Shown here: piece by piece, positions 7,082 to 22,082 of the stretch | Position numbering within the stretch: the stretch's first letter is position 1 | Layout of the letters: every line of letters starts with the position of its first letter | NCBI RefSeq assembly: GCF_001624695.1 | Contig: NZ_JSEP01000009.1 | Location: forward strand, 62,001-126,000 | Direction of reading: 5' to 3' | DNA from: Labrenzia sp. OB1 | GTDB taxonomy: Bacteria; Pseudomonadota; Alphaproteobacteria; Rhizobiales; Stappiaceae | Length of the DNA: 64,000 nt | Notes under the pieces: generated by a model | What the model saw: the letters and a program-made list of their open reading frames with translations, nothing else | The model's database searches: none | What the model was told of the DNA's origin: nothing | Made by a program: the position numbers and the translations under genes

Positions 7082-7609
7082 TCAAGCCTGTTGTTGCCCG
7101 GTTTCTGGTGCGACGGCGGTTGCCTTGAGGGATCTTCGGAGGCGAGCTTCGAGCCAGGGAATTAGGCTAAGCAATTCTTCAGTGTCCGACGGGTTTTCTG
7201 CGCGCTTAATCAGGGCATTGTAGGCACTGGCCTGTTCGTCCAAGAGAACGTCAGCCGGGAGCTTCACGCTTTCGTCCTTGTAGACTTTGATGACCAGAAG
7301 GCCGACCTGGCTGAAAACGGTTTGATCGATTGTTCGAAGGTTTGAGCTGGCCGGGAGTTTCATCGCGTCGGCGAACATTTCTCCTTCGCCTGTTATAAGC
7401 CAAGAAATACTCGCGCCGAAGACTGAATTGTATGCCTTCAGTACAGATGCTGATGGCTCTCTTTCTCCTCGCTCGTATCGAGCAAGGCTATTGGCGCTCA
7501 AACCCAATTTTTTTGCGAATACGTCACGCTCAAGATCGCCGACTGAACGTCGCACATCGCGCAATCGCATAGCTAGCGGCGTCTGTGGCTCGCTCTCAGG
7601 TCTGGCCAA
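7082..7609 (-). CDS. Mu-like phage repressor, XRE-type HTH
   Basis: This protein of up to 175 residues has an XRE helix-turn-helix near residues 15-70 (FAKKLGLSANSLARYERGEREPS) followed by a segment ending in SWLITGEGEM. That pattern is common in temperate and Mu-like phage repressors. It is read leftward, away from ner and the early operon, as the c repressor gene is in phage Mu. The longest frame starts with TTG at 7609; an internal ATG at 7570 would give 162 residues. It should bind the operators in the 7610-7765 gap and keep the early operon silent. Confidence 0.85.
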   Translation of the reverse strand: MARPESEPQTPLAMRLRDVRRSVGDLERDVFAKKLGLSANSLARYERGEREPSASVLKAYNSVFGASISWLITGEGEMFADAMKLPASSNLRTIDQTVFSQVGLLVIKVYKDESVKLPADVLLDEQASAYNALIKRAENPSDTEELLSLIPWLEARLRRSLKATAVAPETGQQQA

Positions 7610-7716: not shown

Positions 7717-7746
7717 GAAAACGGCTTGCTGCAACAAACCGTTTTC
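7717..7746. promoter_or_regulatory. Inverted repeat in the ner leader, possible Ner operator
   Basis: Perfect 8-base arms GAAAACGG and CCGTTTTC enclose a 14-base centre that itself contains TTGCTGCAA. It ends 19 bases before the ner start codon, so it could be an autoregulatory operator or an RNA hairpin in the leader. No T-run follows, so it is not a standard terminator. Confidence 0.45.
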
Positions 7747-7765
7747 CACTTCAGAGAGGCCCCTC

Positions 7766-8077
7766 ATGCCAAAGCCGATCGAGCTTCCCCCGAACGGATG
7801 GGACAAGGACTACATCATAGGCGAGCTTCACCGTCAGGGCATGACCCTGAGAAGGCTCGCTGAAATCCAGGGCATGCACCCCAACAGCTTTTCCCATGTC
7901 TGGACCCGTCCGGTGCGCAAGGCTGAAGCTGCGATTGCAGAGTTTCTGGAAACGCCGCCGCAGGATCTGTGGCCCGACCGGTATCCCATCAGGACCGCTC
8001 GAATCCTTTCTAGCAAATACGAGAAGCTGAACGCCAGCCAGAAACGCAGGGCCGCTCCGGACAGGAAGGCCGCGTGA
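7766..8077 (+). CDS. ner: Ner-like DNA-binding regulator
   Basis: This 103-residue protein fits the Mu Ner / Nlp family: W-KDYIIGELHRQGMTLRRLAE near residues 11-33, then a second helix (NSFSHVWTRPVRKAEAAIAEFL) and the P-DLWPDRY-I segment typical of Ner. In Mu, Ner binds the early control region and turns down both the early and repressor promoters. AGAGAGG lies just upstream of the ATG. It is the first gene of the rightward early operon and faces the repressor gene. Confidence 0.9.
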   Translation: MPKPIELPPNGWDKDYIIGELHRQGMTLRRLAEIQGMHPNSFSHVWTRPVRKAEAAIAEFLETPPQDLWPDRYPIRTARILSSKYEKLNASQKRRAAPDRKAA

Positions 8078-8211
8078 CACTGCGGCCTGGGTCCGGACAT
8101 TCCGGCCCCGCCGTCACGGATTTTCTTCCTCCCCACCTTGCCGGGCGGTCCAAGTGACCGCAGAGCCGCAGCCGCCCGGTCTCTTTTTTTCGAAAAAATC
8201 TGAGGTCTGAC

Positions 8212-9054
8212 TTGAGCGCGTATTCCTCCATCAAGGTTTCCCTGATCGATATTCCTGACGGACGGCTTCGGGGCGTGGATCCGGATTGGGCCGAGTGCCT
8301 GTCGGCCATGTTCCGGGAGACCGGCCAGAAAACTCCCATCGACGTCGTTGCGAATGGCAAACGTTTTTCGCTTGTTGCCGGTGCCCACCGCCTGGAAGCA
8401 GCAAAGCGCGCCAAGTGGCGTGAGATTGAAGCTCGTATTCTGGAACCATCGGCCGAACACGCTGCCGACGAGCTGCGCCTTCACGAGATCCTGGAGAACC
8501 TCGGCCGCAAGGATCTCAATGCCCTGGAGCGCTGCGAGGCACTGAGCGAACTGAAGCGGGTCTATGAGGCGTTGCATCCGCAAACAAAGCGCGGCGGCGA
8601 TCGCAAGAGCCAAGCCGCTAGAAACAAAAAAGAAAATCAAACGGAAATTGTTTCCTTTTGTTTTTCCGCTGCCGAGACCACGGGATTAACAGACCGTGCA
8701 ATCCGCATGGCTATCGCTATCTTCAACGGCCTTTCCCCGGAAACCCGCGAGCGCCTGAAAGGCAGTGTCTTCGCCGAAAAACAATCCGACCTGAAAGCTC
8801 TCGCGGACCTCGACGCCGAAGTCCAGGCGAAGGTCCTGGACCTCATCCTGGGCGAGCTCCCCAAAGCCAGGACCATCGCAGACGCCTTGCTGATACTCGA
8901 CGGCCGCGACCCGGAAACCGCCACCGACCGGGTGTTGCGGTCCGCCTGCGACAATCTCAGCAAGCTGCCCAGAGCCGGCCGCATGGTCGTCTTCAAGCTC
9001 CACCGCAAGGAGATCGTCGAGCTGGTCAGGCGGGAGGGCTGGCTCGATGAGTAG
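8212..9054 (+). CDS. ParB/Srx-like domain protein of the Mu-like early region
   Basis: This 280-residue protein starts with TTG and has a ParB N-terminal fold. It includes GQKTPIDVV near residue 40, the nucleotide-binding box LVAGAHRLEAAK near 55-66, and HEILENLGRKDLNALERCEAL near 90-110. ParB-like genes are found between ner and transposase A in several alphaproteobacterial Mu-like phages, but the role is unknown; DNA binding or nuclease activity is possible. A Lys/Asn-rich AT-rich insert lies near residues 128-145. A close paralogue, identical at most positions by eye, occurs alone at 30950. Its last codons overlap the next gene. Confidence 0.88.
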   Translation: MSAYSSIKVSLIDIPDGRLRGVDPDWAECLSAMFRETGQKTPIDVVANGKRFSLVAGAHRLEAAKRAKWREIEARILEPSAEHAADELRLHEILENLGRKDLNALERCEALSELKRVYEALHPQTKRGGDRKSQAARNKKENQTEIVSFCFSAAETTGLTDRAIRMAIAIFNGLSPETRERLKGSVFAEKQSDLKALADLDAEVQAKVLDLILGELPKARTIADALLILDGRDPETATDRVLRSACDNLSKLPRAGRMVVFKLHRKEIVELVRREGWLDE

Positions 9055-9511
9055 AAAGACCCCGCGCGACGACTTCACCATCGACATGTTCAACGGCTGG
9101 AAGCCACCGAAAGTGTCGGTTGGATTTGAACCTGGAACAATCTCCGGCAACCGGCTGTCCTCGCGGATCAGCCGCGCCATCGCCAAAGCTCTCAAGGAGT
9201 GCGGCAAGGACCGGATCACCGTCGCCGGGCTGATGAGCGCGCGGCTCGGGCATAAAGTCACCAAGGACATGCTGGAGGCCTATGCCTCGGAAGCGAAAAC
9301 CGGAAACAACATCACGGTGGAACGCTTTCTGGCGCTGATCCACGCCACCGGCAAGACGGAACTCCTGGGCTTTATCGCTGAGGACTTCGACATGGCGGTG
9401 GTGCCGCGCAAATACGAAAACGTCATCGAGCTGGCCTTGATCGAAGACCACGAGCGCATGGTCGCGACCCGCAAGAAAACACTCCAGATGCAGATCCGGA
9501 GTGCCAAATGA
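9047..9511 (+). CDS. Mu-like early protein of unknown function
   Basis: This 154-residue protein overlaps the ParB-like gene by 8 bases and the transposase gene by 4 (ATGA), so it is part of a coupled early operon. It is mostly helical with no membrane segment. Residues about 50-75 (ITVAGLMSARLGHKVTKDMLEAYASEA) could form a helix-turn-helix. I recognise the position, just before transposase A in Mu-like phages, but not a function. Confidence 0.75.
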   Translation: MSRKTPRDDFTIDMFNGWKPPKVSVGFEPGTISGNRLSSRISRAIAKALKECGKDRITVAGLMSARLGHKVTKDMLEAYASEAKTGNNITVERFLALIHATGKTELLGFIAEDFDMAVVPRKYENVIELALIEDHERMVATRKKTLQMQIRSAK

Positions 9512-14597: not shown

Positions 14598-15214
14598 CCG
14601 CACTTGCCAAGATCCATGTCCTCAAATCCAAAGCCTGTCTCGATGACGACACCTATCGCGACATCCTGGAGCGGGAGACCGGCAAGCGGTCTTCCAAAGG
14701 TATGAACCAGGTCGAGCAGCTCAAGGTGATCACCGCCCTTCAAGCCATCGCCCCCAGGCAGGTCGGCCAGACGGTCGCCGGGTCCTTTGCGAAGAAGCTG
14801 CAGGCGCTCTGGATTGCCGGCTACAATCTCGGTGTCGTCGATGACAGGTCGGACAAGGCCATGGTTGCCTTCCTGAGACGGCAGACCGGGCTGGACCATC
14901 ACCGCTTCCTGCAAGATCCGGCGGACGCCAACAAGGCAATCGATGCGTTGAAACTCTGGATCCGCAGGTCCACCGGCAATCAGGATCTCTTCACAAGGGA
15001 TCAGAGCCAGCCGGCGCTTTACAACGATCACCGCTTCCAGGTGTGCAGTCACATCTGGTCAGAGCTGGTCAAACAGGACCGGACGCCTGTCGGGACATTG
15101 ACCGCGTATCTGGTCGAGCGCAGCGGTCACAGCGACATTCTTCAGCAGACGTCCTCCGACTGGATCTCGGCCATGAACGCCCTTGGCACCTTGTTGAGGG
15201 CGTGCAAGCGGTGA
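14594..15214 (+). CDS. gemA: GemA/Gp16-family Mu regulatory protein
   Basis: This 206-residue protein matches the GemA (DUF1018) family of Mu-like phages. The N-terminus, ALAKIHVLKSKACLDDDTYR, is the family hallmark (IH..K..L.LD...YR), followed by SSKGMNQVEQLKVI and a central KLQALWIAGYNLGVVDDR segment. In Mu, gemA affects host gene expression and DNA topology by an unclear route. It overlaps the following mor gene (GTGA), so both probably come from the same early transcript. Confidence 0.9.
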   Translation: MTALAKIHVLKSKACLDDDTYRDILERETGKRSSKGMNQVEQLKVITALQAIAPRQVGQTVAGSFAKKLQALWIAGYNLGVVDDRSDKAMVAFLRRQTGLDHHRFLQDPADANKAIDALKLWIRRSTGNQDLFTRDQSQPALYNDHRFQVCSHIWSELVKQDRTPVGTLTAYLVERSGHSDILQQTSSDWISAMNALGTLLRACKR

Positions 15215-15654
15215 GCGACGAGCTTCCAGGCCTGCTCGGTGATCTCGCCAGGATCGTCGGACTTGCGCCTGCCCTTGCCATCGCCGAACGTGTGGGCGGC
15301 ACGCGGGTCTCCATCCCGGCGCGGGCGCCCCAGAACCACTGGCTGGTGGAGACGGTCGGCCGGGATGCGGCCGACACGATCTGCGACTACTTCCGCATCC
15401 TGACACCCGAAGGCCGGGAGAGCGGCGCAAGTCATGTGGTCATTCCCCGCGGCCCAACCGGCTGTCTGGCAAAAGCCCGGCGACGCCTCGCCCGGGAACT
15501 GGATGCCGGCACAAGCGCGAGAGAGGCAGCCCGGCGCGCAGGTGTCTCGGAGCGGGCTGCGTTCCGCATGCGGGCGCGCCGGCGCACTGCCGATGATGGG
15601 CAGGGAGATCTGTTCCTGCAAGATATGGGAAAAGTAAGTGACGGGAGGACGTGA
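15211..15654 (+). CDS. mor: Mor-type transcription activator, copy 1
   Basis: This 147-residue protein is a Mor/C family activator. It has the N-terminal LPGLLGDLARIVGLAPALAIAERVGGTRVSI-type dimerisation region and a C-terminal helix-turn-helix (ARELDAGTSAREAARRAGVSERAAFRMR), here read in segments. I choose the GTG at 15211 because it overlaps the gemA stop and aligns with the second copy. In Mu, Mor made from the early transcript activates the middle promoter, which drives C. The family's usual start is acidic, as seen here (SDELP). Confidence 0.88.
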   Translation: MSDELPGLLGDLARIVGLAPALAIAERVGGTRVSIPARAPQNHWLVETVGRDAADTICDYFRILTPEGRESGASHVVIPRGPTGCLAKARRRLARELDAGTSAREAARRAGVSERAAFRMRARRRTADDGQGDLFLQDMGKVSDGRT

Positions 15655-16118: not shown

Positions 16119-16301
16119 TGTCAGCTGGCGCTCTCAAATCCGGTCTGATAGGGTCAAACTCTTCCTGAAATTGTGAATTCTCCACCTTGGCTGACGACCG
16201 TCAGCCCTGACATCTGTCATCCGTCCGCTAGCGTTCTGACATCGCAAACGGGCCGCTCTCGTTTGCGGCTTTCCTCAGACAGTCAGAATGGAGCCCGTCC
16301 G

Positions 16302-16700
16302 ATGAACGATGACCTTCTTCCAGGTGTCCTTGGTGAAATCGCAGACGTTGCCGGCATCCCCGCAGCCTTGGCACTCGCGGATAAGGTCGGCGGGACCAGG
16401 ATCAATATTCCGGCGAGAGCCCAGGACGATCATTGGCTGGTCGAGACAGTCGGGCGTAAGGCTGCCGATGAGATCTGCGATTACTTCCGCACACTCTCCG
16501 CAGAGCACCGGGAAGCCGGCGCGCGGCATATCGTGATCCCGCTTGGCGCTACCGGGCCGATGGCGCAGGCGCGGCGGACGCTCATCACAGAGCTGGAGAA
16601 TGGCACCAGTGCGCGGCAGGCGGCGCGCAAGGCAGGCGTGTCGGAGAGGACGGCGTTCCGGATGAGGGCGAATTTGAAGGAGGGGAAGAGGGCGGCGTGA
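16302..16700 (+). CDS. Mor/C-type transcription activator, copy 2
   Basis: This 132-residue protein is a clear paralogue of the Mor at 15211: LLPGVLGEIADVAGIPAAL, GGTRINIPARAQDDHWLVET and the HTH GTSARQAARKAGVSERTAFR align without gaps. The start is the ATG at 16302; upstream codons in the same frame have no similarity to Mor. In Mu, C is a Mor paralogue made from the middle promoter and activates late genes, so this may be the C equivalent. No late genes remain downstream. Confidence 0.85.
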   Translation: MNDDLLPGVLGEIADVAGIPAALALADKVGGTRINIPARAQDDHWLVETVGRKAADEICDYFRTLSAEHREAGARHIVIPLGATGPMAQARRTLITELENGTSARQAARKAGVSERTAFRMRANLKEGKRAA

Positions 16701-16976: not shown

Positions 16977-17312
16977 CTAGTAGCTCTCGTGGCGCGGTAC
17001 GTCCAACACGCTGTCGATGGCTGCAATCGCGGCAACGAGTTTCGCTCGGACTTGCAAGAGCTGGAAATCAACGATCACACGCTCCCGCCCGGCCATAATA
17101 AGGAAGGCTTCGAGAACAGTATCCGAGTGCTGCGCCAGCATCGCCAAGTGCGGGCCGCTTGGTCCCGTTTCTGCATTAAGCCAGTTGGTTGCTGTCCGTT
17201 CTGCTGCTCCAGTCCACCTGCGGATCGTCTTCACAGCCCTATGGGTTTGCCCGAGCTCTGACTTCAGTGCTGATGCGACAATAGCGGCGTAGGAATCGGG
17301 TGTGTATGGCAT
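16977..17312 (-). CDS. Small HTH-like protein divergent from serine recombinase
   Basis: This 111-residue protein contains TIRRWTGAAERTATNWLNAE (residues about 31-50), which reads as a helix-turn-helix, then GPSGPHLAMLAQHSDTVLEAFLIMAGR. The ATG at 17312 is chosen over the longer frame because it begins the well-behaved sequence. It faces the recombinase operon across a gap of about 140 bases, so it may regulate the recombinase promoter. I do not know a named family. Confidence 0.7.
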   Translation of the reverse strand: MPYTPDSYAAIVASALKSELGQTHRAVKTIRRWTGAAERTATNWLNAETGPSGPHLAMLAQHSDTVLEAFLIMAGRERVIVDFQLLQVRAKLVAAIAAIDSVLDVPRHESY

Positions 17313-17453
17313 CGTCAAGACCTCCTGCAAAAGGTTGCCTGTTTTCTGCAATATGTTACCGGCGCCCAGCGGTTATGATTGACGCCACGGCGGTCACACG
17401 CAGAGCCCCATTCACCTCGAGCTCGTGTCCGTAACGAAGACTGGCGAGGCGAC

Positions 17454-19025
17454 GTGTCCAACTTTGACCGTAACGCGCATAGAGACAACACGCATGACGC
17501 CGGTTTTGTGCGGGCGGTCGAATATGTCCGCATGTCGACCGAACATCAGAAATATTCGACCGAAAATCAGTCCGATGTAATCCGCCGTTACGCGGCAAAT
17601 CGAGGCTTTGAGATTATCCGCACCTACAAGGATGCGGGGCGCAGCGGCTTGAACTTGGCTGGTCGCTCCGGTCTGAAGCAATTGATTGCAGACATTGAAA
17701 GCGCGAAAGCCGATTTTTCAATTGTGCTCGTCTATGACATCAGTCGTTGGGGACGTTTTCAGGATGCGGATGAAAGCGCCTATTATGAATATCGCTGCCG
17801 GCGTGCGGGTGTGCGTGTCGAATACTGTGCCGAACCATTTGAAAATGACGGTAGTATCGGCTCCGACGTGCAAAAGGTCGTCAAACGGAGCATGGCTGCT
17901 GAATACAGCCGAGAGCTCTCGACAAAAGTGTTCGCGGGCCAGTGTCGCTTGATTGAGATGGGTTATCGCCAGGGCGGCATGGCCGGGTTTGGCCTGCGTC
18001 GCGAACTGCGCGATGAACATGGTCGCCCCAAAGCTATCCTCGCACTGGGAGAGAAAAAGAGCATTCAAACAGACAGGGTTGTACTTGTCCCTGGTCCTGC
18101 AGAAGAAGTCGCTATCGTCCGCTGGATTTACCGACGTTTTGTCGATGATAGGCGCAATGAAGCGCAGATTGCGGACGAGTTGAACGAGCGCGGTGTTGTT
18201 ACTGACCTGGACCGGCTCTGGACCAAGGGCACGGTGCACCAAATTCTCACCAACGAGAAATACATCGGCAACAATGTCTGGAACCATAACTCGTTCAAGC
18301 TGAAGCAAAAGCGGGTTTCAAACGACAGCGCCATGTGGGTGCGGGCCGATGGGGCCTTTGCCGCGATTGTTGAGACGACGGAGTTTGATGCAGCACGTTC
18401 AATTATCGAGGCGCGCACGCGGCATCTTACAAACGATGAATTGCTGGGTATGCTCCGCAGCCTGTATGAGCGGACGGGCATGCTCTCTGGTCTGATTATT
18501 GATGAAGCAGAGGATTGCCCTCCCAGTAGCGCATTTCACCACAGGTTTGGGGGGCTGCTCAAAGCGTATCAGCTTATTGGCTACACCCCGAAACGCGACT
18601 ACCGCTTTATTGAAGTCAACAAGGCATTGAGAAAGCGGCACGCCGTCGTGGTTGACGAGACTATCCAGGGAATTGAACAAGTAGGTGGAACGGTGCGACG
18701 TGACCCACTGACCGATATTCTTACGATCAATCGAGAGTTTACTGTGTCTCTCACAGTTGCGCGTTGCCTACAAACGCAGGCGGGCTCACTGAGGTGGAAA
18801 GTGCGTCTGGATTGCGGTCTCGTACCGGACATCACGCTTGCCGTGCGCATGAGCTCAGAAAACAGCGCCGTGCGGGATTACCTGATTTTGCCGATGTTTC
18901 AGATGAATCGCTCTGTCTTGCGACTTGCGGAACGAAACGGGATTTGGTTCGACAGCTATCGCTTTGACACCCTTGACCCTCTGTTTGAGTTGGCTGAGCG
19001 CCTACCAATTCCGGAGGCCGCGTAG
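17454..19025 (+). CDS. Large serine recombinase
   Basis: This 523-residue protein has a resolvase N-terminal domain with the nucleophile in EYVRMST (Ser28 from the GTG start chosen), the DISRWGRF motif near residue 95, and the recombinase domain starting near GYRQGGMAGFGLRREL (about residue 165). A C-terminal domain of more than 250 residues follows. Large serine recombinases integrate or excise DNA at short att sites. I prefer the GTG at 17454, with GCGAGG upstream; the frame extends to 17379. No classic zinc-ribbon cysteine set is obvious, unlike many phage integrases of this class. Confidence 0.92.
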   Translation: MSNFDRNAHRDNTHDAGFVRAVEYVRMSTEHQKYSTENQSDVIRRYAANRGFEIIRTYKDAGRSGLNLAGRSGLKQLIADIESAKADFSIVLVYDISRWGRFQDADESAYYEYRCRRAGVRVEYCAEPFENDGSIGSDVQKVVKRSMAAEYSRELSTKVFAGQCRLIEMGYRQGGMAGFGLRRELRDEHGRPKAILALGEKKSIQTDRVVLVPGPAEEVAIVRWIYRRFVDDRRNEAQIADELNERGVVTDLDRLWTKGTVHQILTNEKYIGNNVWNHNSFKLKQKRVSNDSAMWVRADGAFAAIVETTEFDAARSIIEARTRHLTNDELLGMLRSLYERTGMLSGLIIDEAEDCPPSSAFHHRFGGLLKAYQLIGYTPKRDYRFIEVNKALRKRHAVVVDETIQGIEQVGGTVRRDPLTDILTINREFTVSLTVARCLQTQAGSLRWKVRLDCGLVPDITLAVRMSSENSAVRDYLILPMFQMNRSVLRLAERNGIWFDSYRFDTLDPLFELAERLPIPEAA

Positions 19026-19898
19026 ATGGATCTCCAGGACAAACGGATCGAACTAATTCCACTTGATCAAATTGCGATCCTCAATCCAAGAGATCGCAAC
19101 CAAAAGGTTTTCCGTGAAATTGTTACCAGCATTGCCGAGGTTGGCCTAAAGCGACCAATCACGGTCACAAAGAACGGCAGCACTTATGCGCTTGTTTGCG
19201 GACAAGGGCGACTTGAAGCACTCCGCGAATTGGGTCAATCCGAAATCCCGGCCTTTGTCATTGAGGCCGACACCCAAACCTCGCTCATCAAAAGCCTGGT
19301 GGAAAACTGCGCCCGGCGCCACCATCCGGCGTTAGATCTTTTGCACGATATCGGCGGTATGAAAGAGCGCGGCTATTCAAACAGTGAAATCGCAAAAAAG
19401 ACCGGCCTCTCACAAGAATACATCAAGGGCGTCGGTAAGCTTTTACGGCACGGTGAACAGCGGCTTTTGCATTCGGTCGAGGCAGGACAAATCCCGGTCA
19501 GTGTCGCTGTGGAAATTATCGATGCGGATGATGTCGGTATTCAGGAAGCACTACAGCAAGCCTATGAAAGCAACGTTTTGCGAGGCAGAAAACTGTCTAT
19601 CGCTAAACGAGTGATTGAAAACCGGCATCGCAAAGGTAAAGGGCTCGCTCGTCCTAGGCGTGGCAGCCAAAAAGTTTCTTCGAACGCACTCGTGAAGGCT
19701 TATCAGGAAGATACGGACAGAAAGAAAATCCTGATCCGCACATCGGAAGCGACACGCAGCCGTCTCCTTTTCATCACACATGCGTTGCGAGAACTCTTGC
19801 AAGATGAGGACTTCCTTGCTGTGCTGGAGATCGCCGACCTTGGGACAATTCCCAAGCGATTGATTGATCGCATCGAGACGCAAGAATTGAAGCCATGA
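19026..19898 (+). CDS. ParB/RepB-like DNA-binding protein 1
   Basis: This 290-residue protein has an N-terminal ParB domain: NPRDRN near residue 22, LVCGQGRLEALRELG near 58-72 (ParB box) and LVENCARRHHPALDLLHDIG near 92-112. The HTH YSNSEIAKKTGLSQEYIKGV follows near 119-138. The C-terminal region resembles the RepB C-terminal domain of repABC plasmids. Its ATG follows the recombinase stop without a gap. RepB/ParB proteins bind centromere-like sites; no ParA is encoded nearby, so a role in recombinase control or att-site binding is an inference. Confidence 0.88.
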   Translation: MDLQDKRIELIPLDQIAILNPRDRNQKVFREIVTSIAEVGLKRPITVTKNGSTYALVCGQGRLEALRELGQSEIPAFVIEADTQTSLIKSLVENCARRHHPALDLLHDIGGMKERGYSNSEIAKKTGLSQEYIKGVGKLLRHGEQRLLHSVEAGQIPVSVAVEIIDADDVGIQEALQQAYESNVLRGRKLSIAKRVIENRHRKGKGLARPRRGSQKVSSNALVKAYQEDTDRKKILIRTSEATRSRLLFITHALRELLQDEDFLAVLEIADLGTIPKRLIDRIETQELKP

Positions 19899-20797
19899 GC
19901 AATGCTGTAGTGCAAGCAGTTTCACTTGCGTTCGAACGGGACACTGTGACTTTGGCGCTGTCTGACATTGTGCCGCTTCGTTTGGTCTCGAATACGATCA
20001 AGAAATCCGCGAAATACGCGCAGATACGCTCCTCTATCTTTTATTCCGGCCTGGCTGAACTACCAGTCGTCGTGCGCAATCAAAATGATCAGGGCAAGTA
20101 CCTTCTCTTGGATGGTCATATCCGGCTAGCTGTGCTTCAGGAATTTGGCGAGGATCATGTGACCTGCCTCGTTGCCAAAGACGATGAAGCTTACACATAC
20201 AATAAGCGCGTGAATCGGCTTGCCACGATTCAGGAGCATCAGATGATCCTGAAAGCCCTTGAAAAAGGTGTGTCCGAGGAAGTTCTAGCGAAGGTCTTGA
20301 ATGTCAATATCGGGAATATACGCAGAAAGCGGACTCTATTGCGTGGCATTTGCGTGGAAGTCGCAGAACTCTTGAAAGACAAGCATGTTCCGATCAATAC
20401 GTTCAGAGAGCTGCGGAAGTTAAAACCTCTGCGTCAAATTCAAGCGGCAGAACTGATGATTGCTATGAACAAGTATTCCAATAATTTCGCAAAATCCTTT
20501 GTCGGCGCGACGCCTGCACTGCAACTCGTTGAGCCTGAAAAATCGAAAAAGATTAGCGGCCTTAGCGATGAGCAAATTGCGCTCATGGAGCAAGAATCAG
20601 AAAAACTGGATCGGGAATTCCGCCTCCTTGAGGAGACATTCGGACAGGATAACCTAGATTTGGTCGTTGCAACTGGTTACGTGAAGCGCCTGATCGAAAA
20701 TGCGCAAGTCGTCAGGTATCTCGCAAAGAACTTTCCGGAACTGTTAGCCGAGTTTCAGAAGATTGCAGACAGTGCCGACTTGAATGGGATGGCGTAA
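19895..20797 (+). CDS. ParB/RepB-like DNA-binding protein 2
   Basis: This 300-residue protein overlaps the previous gene by 4 bases (ATGA). It is a divergent ParB-type protein: residues about 65-80 (YLLLDGHIRLAVLQEFG) replace the usual glycine-rich box with DGHIR, and an EHQMILKAL...GVSEEVLAKVLNVNIGNIRRK helix region follows (about 112-146). The C-terminal half is Lys/Glu-rich and helical. It is clearly different in sequence from protein 1, so the two may form a hetero-complex or recognise different sites. Confidence 0.8.
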   Translation: MSNAVVQAVSLAFERDTVTLALSDIVPLRLVSNTIKKSAKYAQIRSSIFYSGLAELPVVVRNQNDQGKYLLLDGHIRLAVLQEFGEDHVTCLVAKDDEAYTYNKRVNRLATIQEHQMILKALEKGVSEEVLAKVLNVNIGNIRRKRTLLRGICVEVAELLKDKHVPINTFRELRKLKPLRQIQAAELMIAMNKYSNNFAKSFVGATPALQLVEPEKSKKISGLSDEQIALMEQESEKLDREFRLLEETFGQDNLDLVVATGYVKRLIENAQVVRYLAKNFPELLAEFQKIADSADLNGMA

Positions 20798-21865: not shown

Positions 21866-22082
21866 GGGCGCTCTTTTGTGTTGAAGTGGTGTCTTTCTGT
21901 GCCGGCAACTCTGCTGTAGCAATGATTGCTATCGGGCCTGAACTGCCGTTCACTGCCAATTCACGATGCTAAAACCAGCCGCAATAAATAAGACCCTATT
22001 TGACCATGACATGAGAGCGTTCCGCGAGGAGCGTGTCGCAGGGCGATGCGGGGCATCGGCCAAGACGCGCGACACTGCGCCA

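Follow-up and report, generated by a model that had tools for sequence, protein, structure and literature searches.

We analyzed a 64,000-nucleotide stretch of the genome of Labrenzia sp. OB1 (contig NZ_JSEP01000009.1, positions 62,001 to 126,000; hereafter, the window), which carries an operon composed of a large serine recombinase gene (rec) and the genes for a first and a second ParB/RepB-like protein (pb1 and pb2), with a small gene in divergent orientation upstream. The set of rec, pb1, and pb2, termed the trio, was called in 93 of 100 loci (a set that contains the window), confirming that the operon is real and conserved beyond chance, and pb1 and pb2 are near-constant partners of the serine recombinase. 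In relatives of the window copy, the genes were shown to move together into unrelated sites, and the ends of the mobile unit lie close to the outer genes. With a probability somewhat above even, the operon is a whole compact integrative element whose pb1/pb2 complex controls the recombinase, and not a plasmid fragment.

Conservation of the operon and its proteins

A scan of one genome per species yielded 167 relatives of the recombinase, of which the top 80 were retained, so this sample was picked by the recombinase itself. Using tblastn, we detected pb1 in all 80 related loci (some partial) and pb2 in 76. The wider set of 100 loci consisted of the window, related loci, and plasmid and phage records. 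Seven loci lacked the full trio (L005, L011, L016, L019, L047, L079, and L128), four of which (L011, L016, L019, and L079) stop at the end of the retrieved stretch. Among the 93 trio loci, pb2 was short (128–250 amino acids) in four and pb1 in one, and both were contained in one frame in L084. When the longest frames were used, four-base overlaps were present in 48 of these 93 loci between rec and pb1 and in 39 between pb1 and pb2, and one-base overlaps in 20 and 7, respectively. In the window, the spacing from rec to pb1 is 0 bases and pb1 overlaps pb2 by 4 bases, so the open reading frame (ORF) coordinates reproduce exactly the layout of the original prediction, made from the letters alone, including the divergent gene.

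We also searched a less biased sample of 289 alphaproteobacterial genomes, including that of the window, with thresholds of E up to 1e-60 for rec and up to 1e-20 for pb2. In the 288 other genomes, pb2 lay downstream at 18 of 20 rec places, and rec lay beside 18 of 19 pb2 places. The two rec places without pb2 were one at 480 bases from a contig start (G362) and one with only 39% identity (G253), and the lone pb2 place was a remnant without a recombinase (G250). The recombinase therefore does not occur mostly without the ParB-like genes, the outcome that the original prediction had named as telling against it. The distance matrices of rec, pb1, and pb2 correlated with r of 0.81–0.91 over 84 loci (permutation maximum 0.13), a correlation that shared descent alone would also yield. 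The window genome has a single recombinase of this kind, and its distribution within the genus is sporadic, with a relative of at least 65% identity in 5 of 37 genomes, including the window's own (two partial). The genus takes in Roseibium, as the locus L003, from an uncultured Roseibium, matched a same-genus genome at 100% over 2,001 bases.

To describe the flanks of 99 loci, ORFs of at least 100 amino acids were grouped, and families were counted if they occurred in at least 8 loci. These were rec (95 loci), the ParB-like genes (93), the divergent gene (61), tyrosine integrases (14, with three members of the family checked in Pfam), and ABC transporter ATPases (10), the last two at scattered distances. 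The set is conserved and the flanks are unlike across loci, the outcome that the original prediction had proposed to check for. Within this survey, no ParA, replication, or cargo family was common to the loci, which bears out the earlier remark that such genes are missing, and in the window, Pfam detected no cognate ParA or RepA among the ORFs examined next to the operon.

These flanks bear on the possibility that pb1 and pb2 prevent the loss of the excised circle or of the host replicon, by partition or sister pairing through a host or plasmid ParA. Both proteins belong to the ParB/RepB group, and many copies reside on plasmids, some of which have ParA genes elsewhere (within ~15 kb in single plasmid copies). 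A partition role is nevertheless improbable: no ParA or replication family is shared across the 99 loci, neither of the two best-delimited units, in comM and in Agrobacterium (see below), contains such a gene, and nothing suggests that the circle replicates.

The recombinase matched the Pfam domains Resolvase (4.8e-21) and Recombinase (2.7e-22) and the PHROG integrase family phrog_95 (2.5e-54), and the motif YVRMS with the catalytic Ser53 was present in at least 95% of 84 loci. We found neither a Pfam zinc-ribbon match nor, over the same 84 loci, a conserved CxxC cysteine pair. A zinc beta-ribbon with a coiled coil is typical of large serine recombinases and is not universal, and a degenerate ribbon may be present here.

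The two ParB-like proteins represent two motif types. pb1 matched ParB_N (7e-9) and RepB (2.2e-20) in Pfam, and its full-size copies contain CG[QE]GR (90 of 90) and ENxARR (87 of 90), which we take to be close to the nucleotide motifs of ParB (GERR-like and ENxxR-like). pb2 matched RepB (6.7e-44) with no match to ParB_N, and its full-size copies contain DGHxR (83 of 86) and never EN.[AQ]R (0 of 86). pb1 thus combines the N-domain fold with both motifs of the ParB CTPases; pb2 lacks the motifs, though its model matches the fold. In NCBIfam, pb1 scored 23 against the RepB equivalog model (cut-off 201.5), and the best match of pb2 was the serine kinase model SerK (8.7e-5, far below the cut-off). 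The AlphaFold models of pb1 and pb2 had predicted local distance difference test (pLDDT) scores of 85.7 and 85.5 and predicted template modeling (pTM) scores of 0.49 and 0.57, and the low pTM makes the domain placement in both models uncertain. The best Foldseek matches were Noc and ParB–CDP structures for pb1 (E down to 6e-10) and ParB, KorB, and Noc for pb2 (E down to 4e-9), and the ParB targets included forms with CDP or a CTP analogue. The template modeling (TM) scores of the whole models were low (0.24–0.41), and the N domain of pb1 matched sulfiredoxin with a TM-score of 0.79 by the target's length. A reading as a defense system was set aside, since PADLOC models match weakly, through the ParB domain.

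The likeness to KorB and Noc, together with the ParB-type motifs of pb1 and the adjoining divergent gene, could mean that pb1 and pb2 are transcription regulators of that kind, sliding along DNA or silencing it and so governing the operon or its neighbors with no role in recombination. For an element of 3.9 kb, however, it would be expensive to carry two regulators on top of the divergent gene, and the close association with the recombinase speaks more for a joint function. We regard a purely regulatory role as rather unlikely.

The divergent gene had been described as helix-turn-helix (HTH)-like. It is present and conserved, with a tblastn match in the same divergent place at 69 of the 80 related loci. 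The HTH label found no support: the window gene had no match in Pfam or NCBIfam and only a weak PHROG match with no assigned function, and a Pfam match was absent from the single homologue examined, that of L004. L007 and L014 are without this gene; in both, an unrelated helix-turn-helix gene is flanked by a tyrosine integrase and rec. The small divergent gene is probably a regulator. Overall, the original prediction is partly supported, in that its anatomy was right and the meaning it proposed partly right; the ParB-like proteins may be directionality factors, att-site binders, or spreading regulators, as it suggested. It had noticed neither the RNA described below nor the division of the ParB-like proteins into two motif types.

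Table 1. Coordinates of the operon features in the window.
Feature	Position	Strand	Basis and remarks
Small divergent gene	16977..17351	-	ORF; later ATG start at 17312 possible
Large serine recombinase (rec)	17379..19025	+	ORF, Pfam, PHROG; catalytic Ser53
pb1, ParB_N + RepB protein with ParB-type motifs CGQGR and ENxARR	19026..19898	+	Pfam, motif counts, fold model
pb2, RepB (PF07506) protein, ParB/sulfiredoxin-like N domain with DGHxR	19895..20797	+	Pfam, motif counts, fold model
Probable divergent promoter/operator region	17313..17456	.	Sequence; depends on use of later starts (ATG 17312 on -, GTG 17457 on +)

Movement of the operon in relatives

In Sinorhizobium sp. K101, the operon is located precisely inside the comM/yifB gene, and the uninterrupted comM target (the empty allele) is present in S. 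meliloti. In a comparison with an S. meliloti pSymB, the left match extends up to K101 position 7463 and the right one from 11351 onward, and the two overlap by 4 bases at the target, giving the shared core TGCT. The resulting unit of ~3.89 kb consists of the operon plus a few tens of bases on each side. A second Sinorhizobium (L004) has a left junction identical to that of K101. The precise junctions and the empty allele in comM support site-specific att recombination in this relative. In L004, the right end of the comM insertion is immediately followed by a second end-like sequence (L004:4013-4036), possibly a tandem insertion.

The Agrobacterium plasmids pAtC58 and pAt1D1460 have a common 3,904-base block with 96.9% identity between unrelated flanks; outside this block, the two stretches have nothing in common but two short pieces (39 and 32 bases). 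The 22 bases that open the block also continue the host DNA in four plasmids with no operon at that place (L151, L152, L184, and L185), and the match of a fifth (L153) halts at the block. Two copies within one alphaproteobacterium (G176) share a block of ~3.97 kb at 84% and otherwise a single 57-base piece. The divergent gene was unrecognized in both copies, and the search around them for the empty site of an RNA-bearing element reached the G176 genome alone. Two further pairs show similar common blocks, with no empty site: L064/L068 from Pseudomonas (4.3 kb, 96%) and L048/L057 (3.8 kb, 92%). Some pairs share longer stretches, as exemplified by L021/L022 (~14.9 kb), indicating that some copies sit within larger shared regions.

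Several elements have on their left a tRNA gene half that breaks off at the anticodon loop. We dropped tRNA genes as the target of the family and kept them as a lead, because in L007 and L014 a tyrosine integrase separates the half from the operon. A tyrosine integrase also lies beside a tRNA half in L003. Four of 14 tRNA halves are at most 1 kb from rec and leave no room for such an integrase; by eye, these are the 3' halves of fMet, Lys, Thr, and Lys tRNA genes, left of rec (L012, L013, L060, and L063, respectively), and they are possible att sites of the element family. In L003, from another Roseibium, successive tRNA-Arg(CCT)-like halves (by eye; L003:6041-6085 and 7734-7778) were seen upstream of the operon, and with the tyrosine integrase at 7965-9248 the two halves have the appearance of stacked insertions.

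If the set were a leftover of a larger island or plasmid, its apparent mobility could be hitchhiking on tyrosine-integrase islands. One tyrosine integrase family is indeed found near 14 of the 99 loci, and the tRNA halves near L003, L007, and L014 adjoin such genes. The comM insertion of K101, the Agrobacterium pair, and the G176 pair, in which only the operon is shared, contradict this explanation and make it very improbable.

For the window copy, the repeat searches for att sites gave only chance-level matches. Alignment with seven same-genus genomes revealed in common only a gene at 22.8-23.7 kb, to which one genome adds 48 bases within a tRNA gene. The operon's flanks were not shared with the window, and the right flank gave loose matches. 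An 8-base likeness of the left flank to the comM site (AATCTGCT) was noticed and not used. The comparison of occupied and empty sites, proposed earlier as a check, could thus be completed in a relative (comM, K101 versus S. meliloti), and the ends, expected near the operon, lie within tens of bases of it in the two best-resolved cases; neither was found for the window copy, whose mobility is accordingly inferred from its relatives.

In the surroundings of the window operon, an early region of a Mu-like phage (9508-16700), with the phrog_310 transposase and the phrog_296 transposition protein, stops just left of it and includes two Mor-like late activators (15043-15654 and 16173-16700). A repeat of ~110 bases (21968-22082) has several copies in the window genome and also occurs in many genomes of the genus.

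RNA downstream of pb2 in relatives

In 48 of the 93 trio loci, we identified a conserved sequence of ~130 bases, beginning 1 to 98 bases after the pb2 stop, one per locus and on the same strand (for example, L009:8748-8876 and L014:5703-5832; 46 other trio loci). In the alignment of 42 of these sequences (A1), 24 base pairs were identified, 11 of which show changes on both sides, and 98.4% of the cells pair. None of 500 shuffles reached any of five measures, and slid versions paired at 32 to 46%. Folding of six single sequences was no better than that of shuffles (z of -0.09 to 0.83), so the evidence for an RNA structure is the covariation, which is strong. A folded DNA site was considered and rejected, as the many one-sided changes to G-U on one strand fit an RNA better. 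Rfam gave no match in five trio loci at the gathering threshold or in five other RNA loci at E up to 0.5.

A covariance model found 47 strong matches (>75 bits) in the 100 sources, all after pb2, and nine weak ones. In the 289 alphaproteobacterial genomes, several of which had also contributed sequences to the model, there were 15 strong matches in 12 genomes, all 15 directly after pb2, and eight weak matches (<25 bits) with none of the trio genes within ~1.5 kb. On the recombinase tree, the presence of the RNA requires 11 changes, against a mean of 31 for shuffles. Both deep and shallow branches carry it, so the RNA was likely present early and then repeatedly lost. Neither nhmmer nor the covariance model detected it in the window, where two matches of 13-16 bits, at least 18 kb from the operon, were taken as chance. 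The nearest relatives of the window copy and the K101 and C58 elements lack it as well.

With the same covariance model, a search of 398 genomes across the phylum returned matches in 20 genomes. Twenty loci were inspected: pb2 lies beside the RNA in six, and the other 14 have no trio gene within ~1.5 kb. Among 15 wider stretches, the one at a known pb2 place holds the operon, and the 14 around lone RNAs have no trio genes. Outside Alphaproteobacteria, the RNA or its relative thus has another home, which weakens the idea that it serves only the recombinase of the trio. Of eight tested proteins from the neighborhood, six match phage tail families, and a protein beside one lone RNA (L268) has a weak match to the zinc ribbon of another serine recombinase. 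These operon-free RNAs of other classes (L266-L278; wider stretches in L280-L291, L293, and L294) number one to three per genome, in several cases near phage tail genes and, by eye, GGATTCCC...GGGTCGAGTCC hairpins.

The RNA may be a 3' untranslated region. As for a guide function, no variable target-matching segment was recognized by eye. A ribonucleoprotein-controlled recombinase, in which the RNA, the CTP-type pb1, and the DGHxR-type pb2 would act as a complex to license or direct recombination at the ends and lineages like that of the window would have lost the RNA, seems to us distinctly improbable. The RNA is the most surprising part of the system, though the window copy is without it. 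It has no Rfam match and, in the sampled alphaproteobacterial genomes, a constant gene neighbor.

Proposed function and comparison with known systems

We propose that the element, of ~3.9 kb, comprises the divergent gene, rec, pb1, pb2 and, in roughly every second member of the family, the RNA. The recombinase would join the att site of the element to short host sites. pb1, with its ParB-type nucleotide motifs, and pb2, as a diverged partner, would assemble at or close to the ends of the element as an accessory complex, setting the timing and direction of the recombinase (integration or excision) in place of a small directionality factor, and the divergent gene would repress the shared promoter region. 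That pb1 and pb2 act with the recombinase on the ends is inferred from their constant company, and their control of recombination is likely.

Several points weigh against this proposal. Serine integrases normally integrate without an accessory protein, and any binding of pb1 or pb2 to the ends, the recombinase, or CTP is putative. Sphingobium plasmids carry the set among plasmid genes, where it might have another job. We found no record in which the two Agrobacterium flanks are joined, and repeat searches and same-genus alignments found neither the ends nor the empty site of the window copy.

A recombinase with two ParB-fold partners, plus an RNA in half of its relatives, suggests that DNA integration may be controlled in a new way. 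Genome engineering makes wide use of serine integrases, and how accessory factors reverse their action is a bottleneck. In a widespread family in which the recombinase is nearly always accompanied by two ParB-fold proteins, one of them with the nucleotide motifs of ParB, nucleotide-dependent control of recombination becomes directly testable. We regard the element as a serine-recombinase element of a known kind in a new form, marked by two ParB-fold proteins that are nearly always present. Among the open-access titles and abstract openings listed, subscription papers being outside this scope, we found no description of the trio set and none of an RNA with a serine recombinase. Two articles that discuss directionality factors (PMC5311408 and PMC5814800) nowhere contain the word "ParB", and the idea that phiC31 gp3 or phiJoe gp52 is a ParB-like directionality factor, which they do not support, was discarded.

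Among known systems, the ParB/Noc/KorB CTPases are the best Foldseek matches of both models and share their motifs with pb1, whereas here ParA is missing, a recombinase belongs to the operon, and pb2 has DGHxR instead of the ParB motif. The RepB domain (PF07506) of RepABC plasmids is common to pb1 and pb2, but repA and repC are absent from the set. IS607 and some other elements likewise combine a serine recombinase with an RNA at the right end; here, an RNA comes after pb2 in roughly half of the relatives. The present recombinase, in contrast, is large, the delimited units have no third partner of the TnpB kind, and no variable segment resembling a guide was recognized. CcrA and CcrB of staphylococcal cassette chromosome (SCC) elements are also large serine recombinases, and residues 47-338 of the window recombinase match the CcrB model of NCBIfam (E 1.2e-15, 57 bits versus a cut-off of 900). 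The partners and targets of the window family differ, and SCC elements are not known to have ParB-like partners. Phage-type large serine integrases (phiC31, TP901-1, and phrog_95) have the same Resolvase and Recombinase domains and catalytic serine, and the same att integration with a short core was observed in the K101 relative. The family described here differs from them in having neither a zinc-ribbon match nor paired conserved cysteines, and in that the operon encodes two ParB-fold partners and no known directionality factor.

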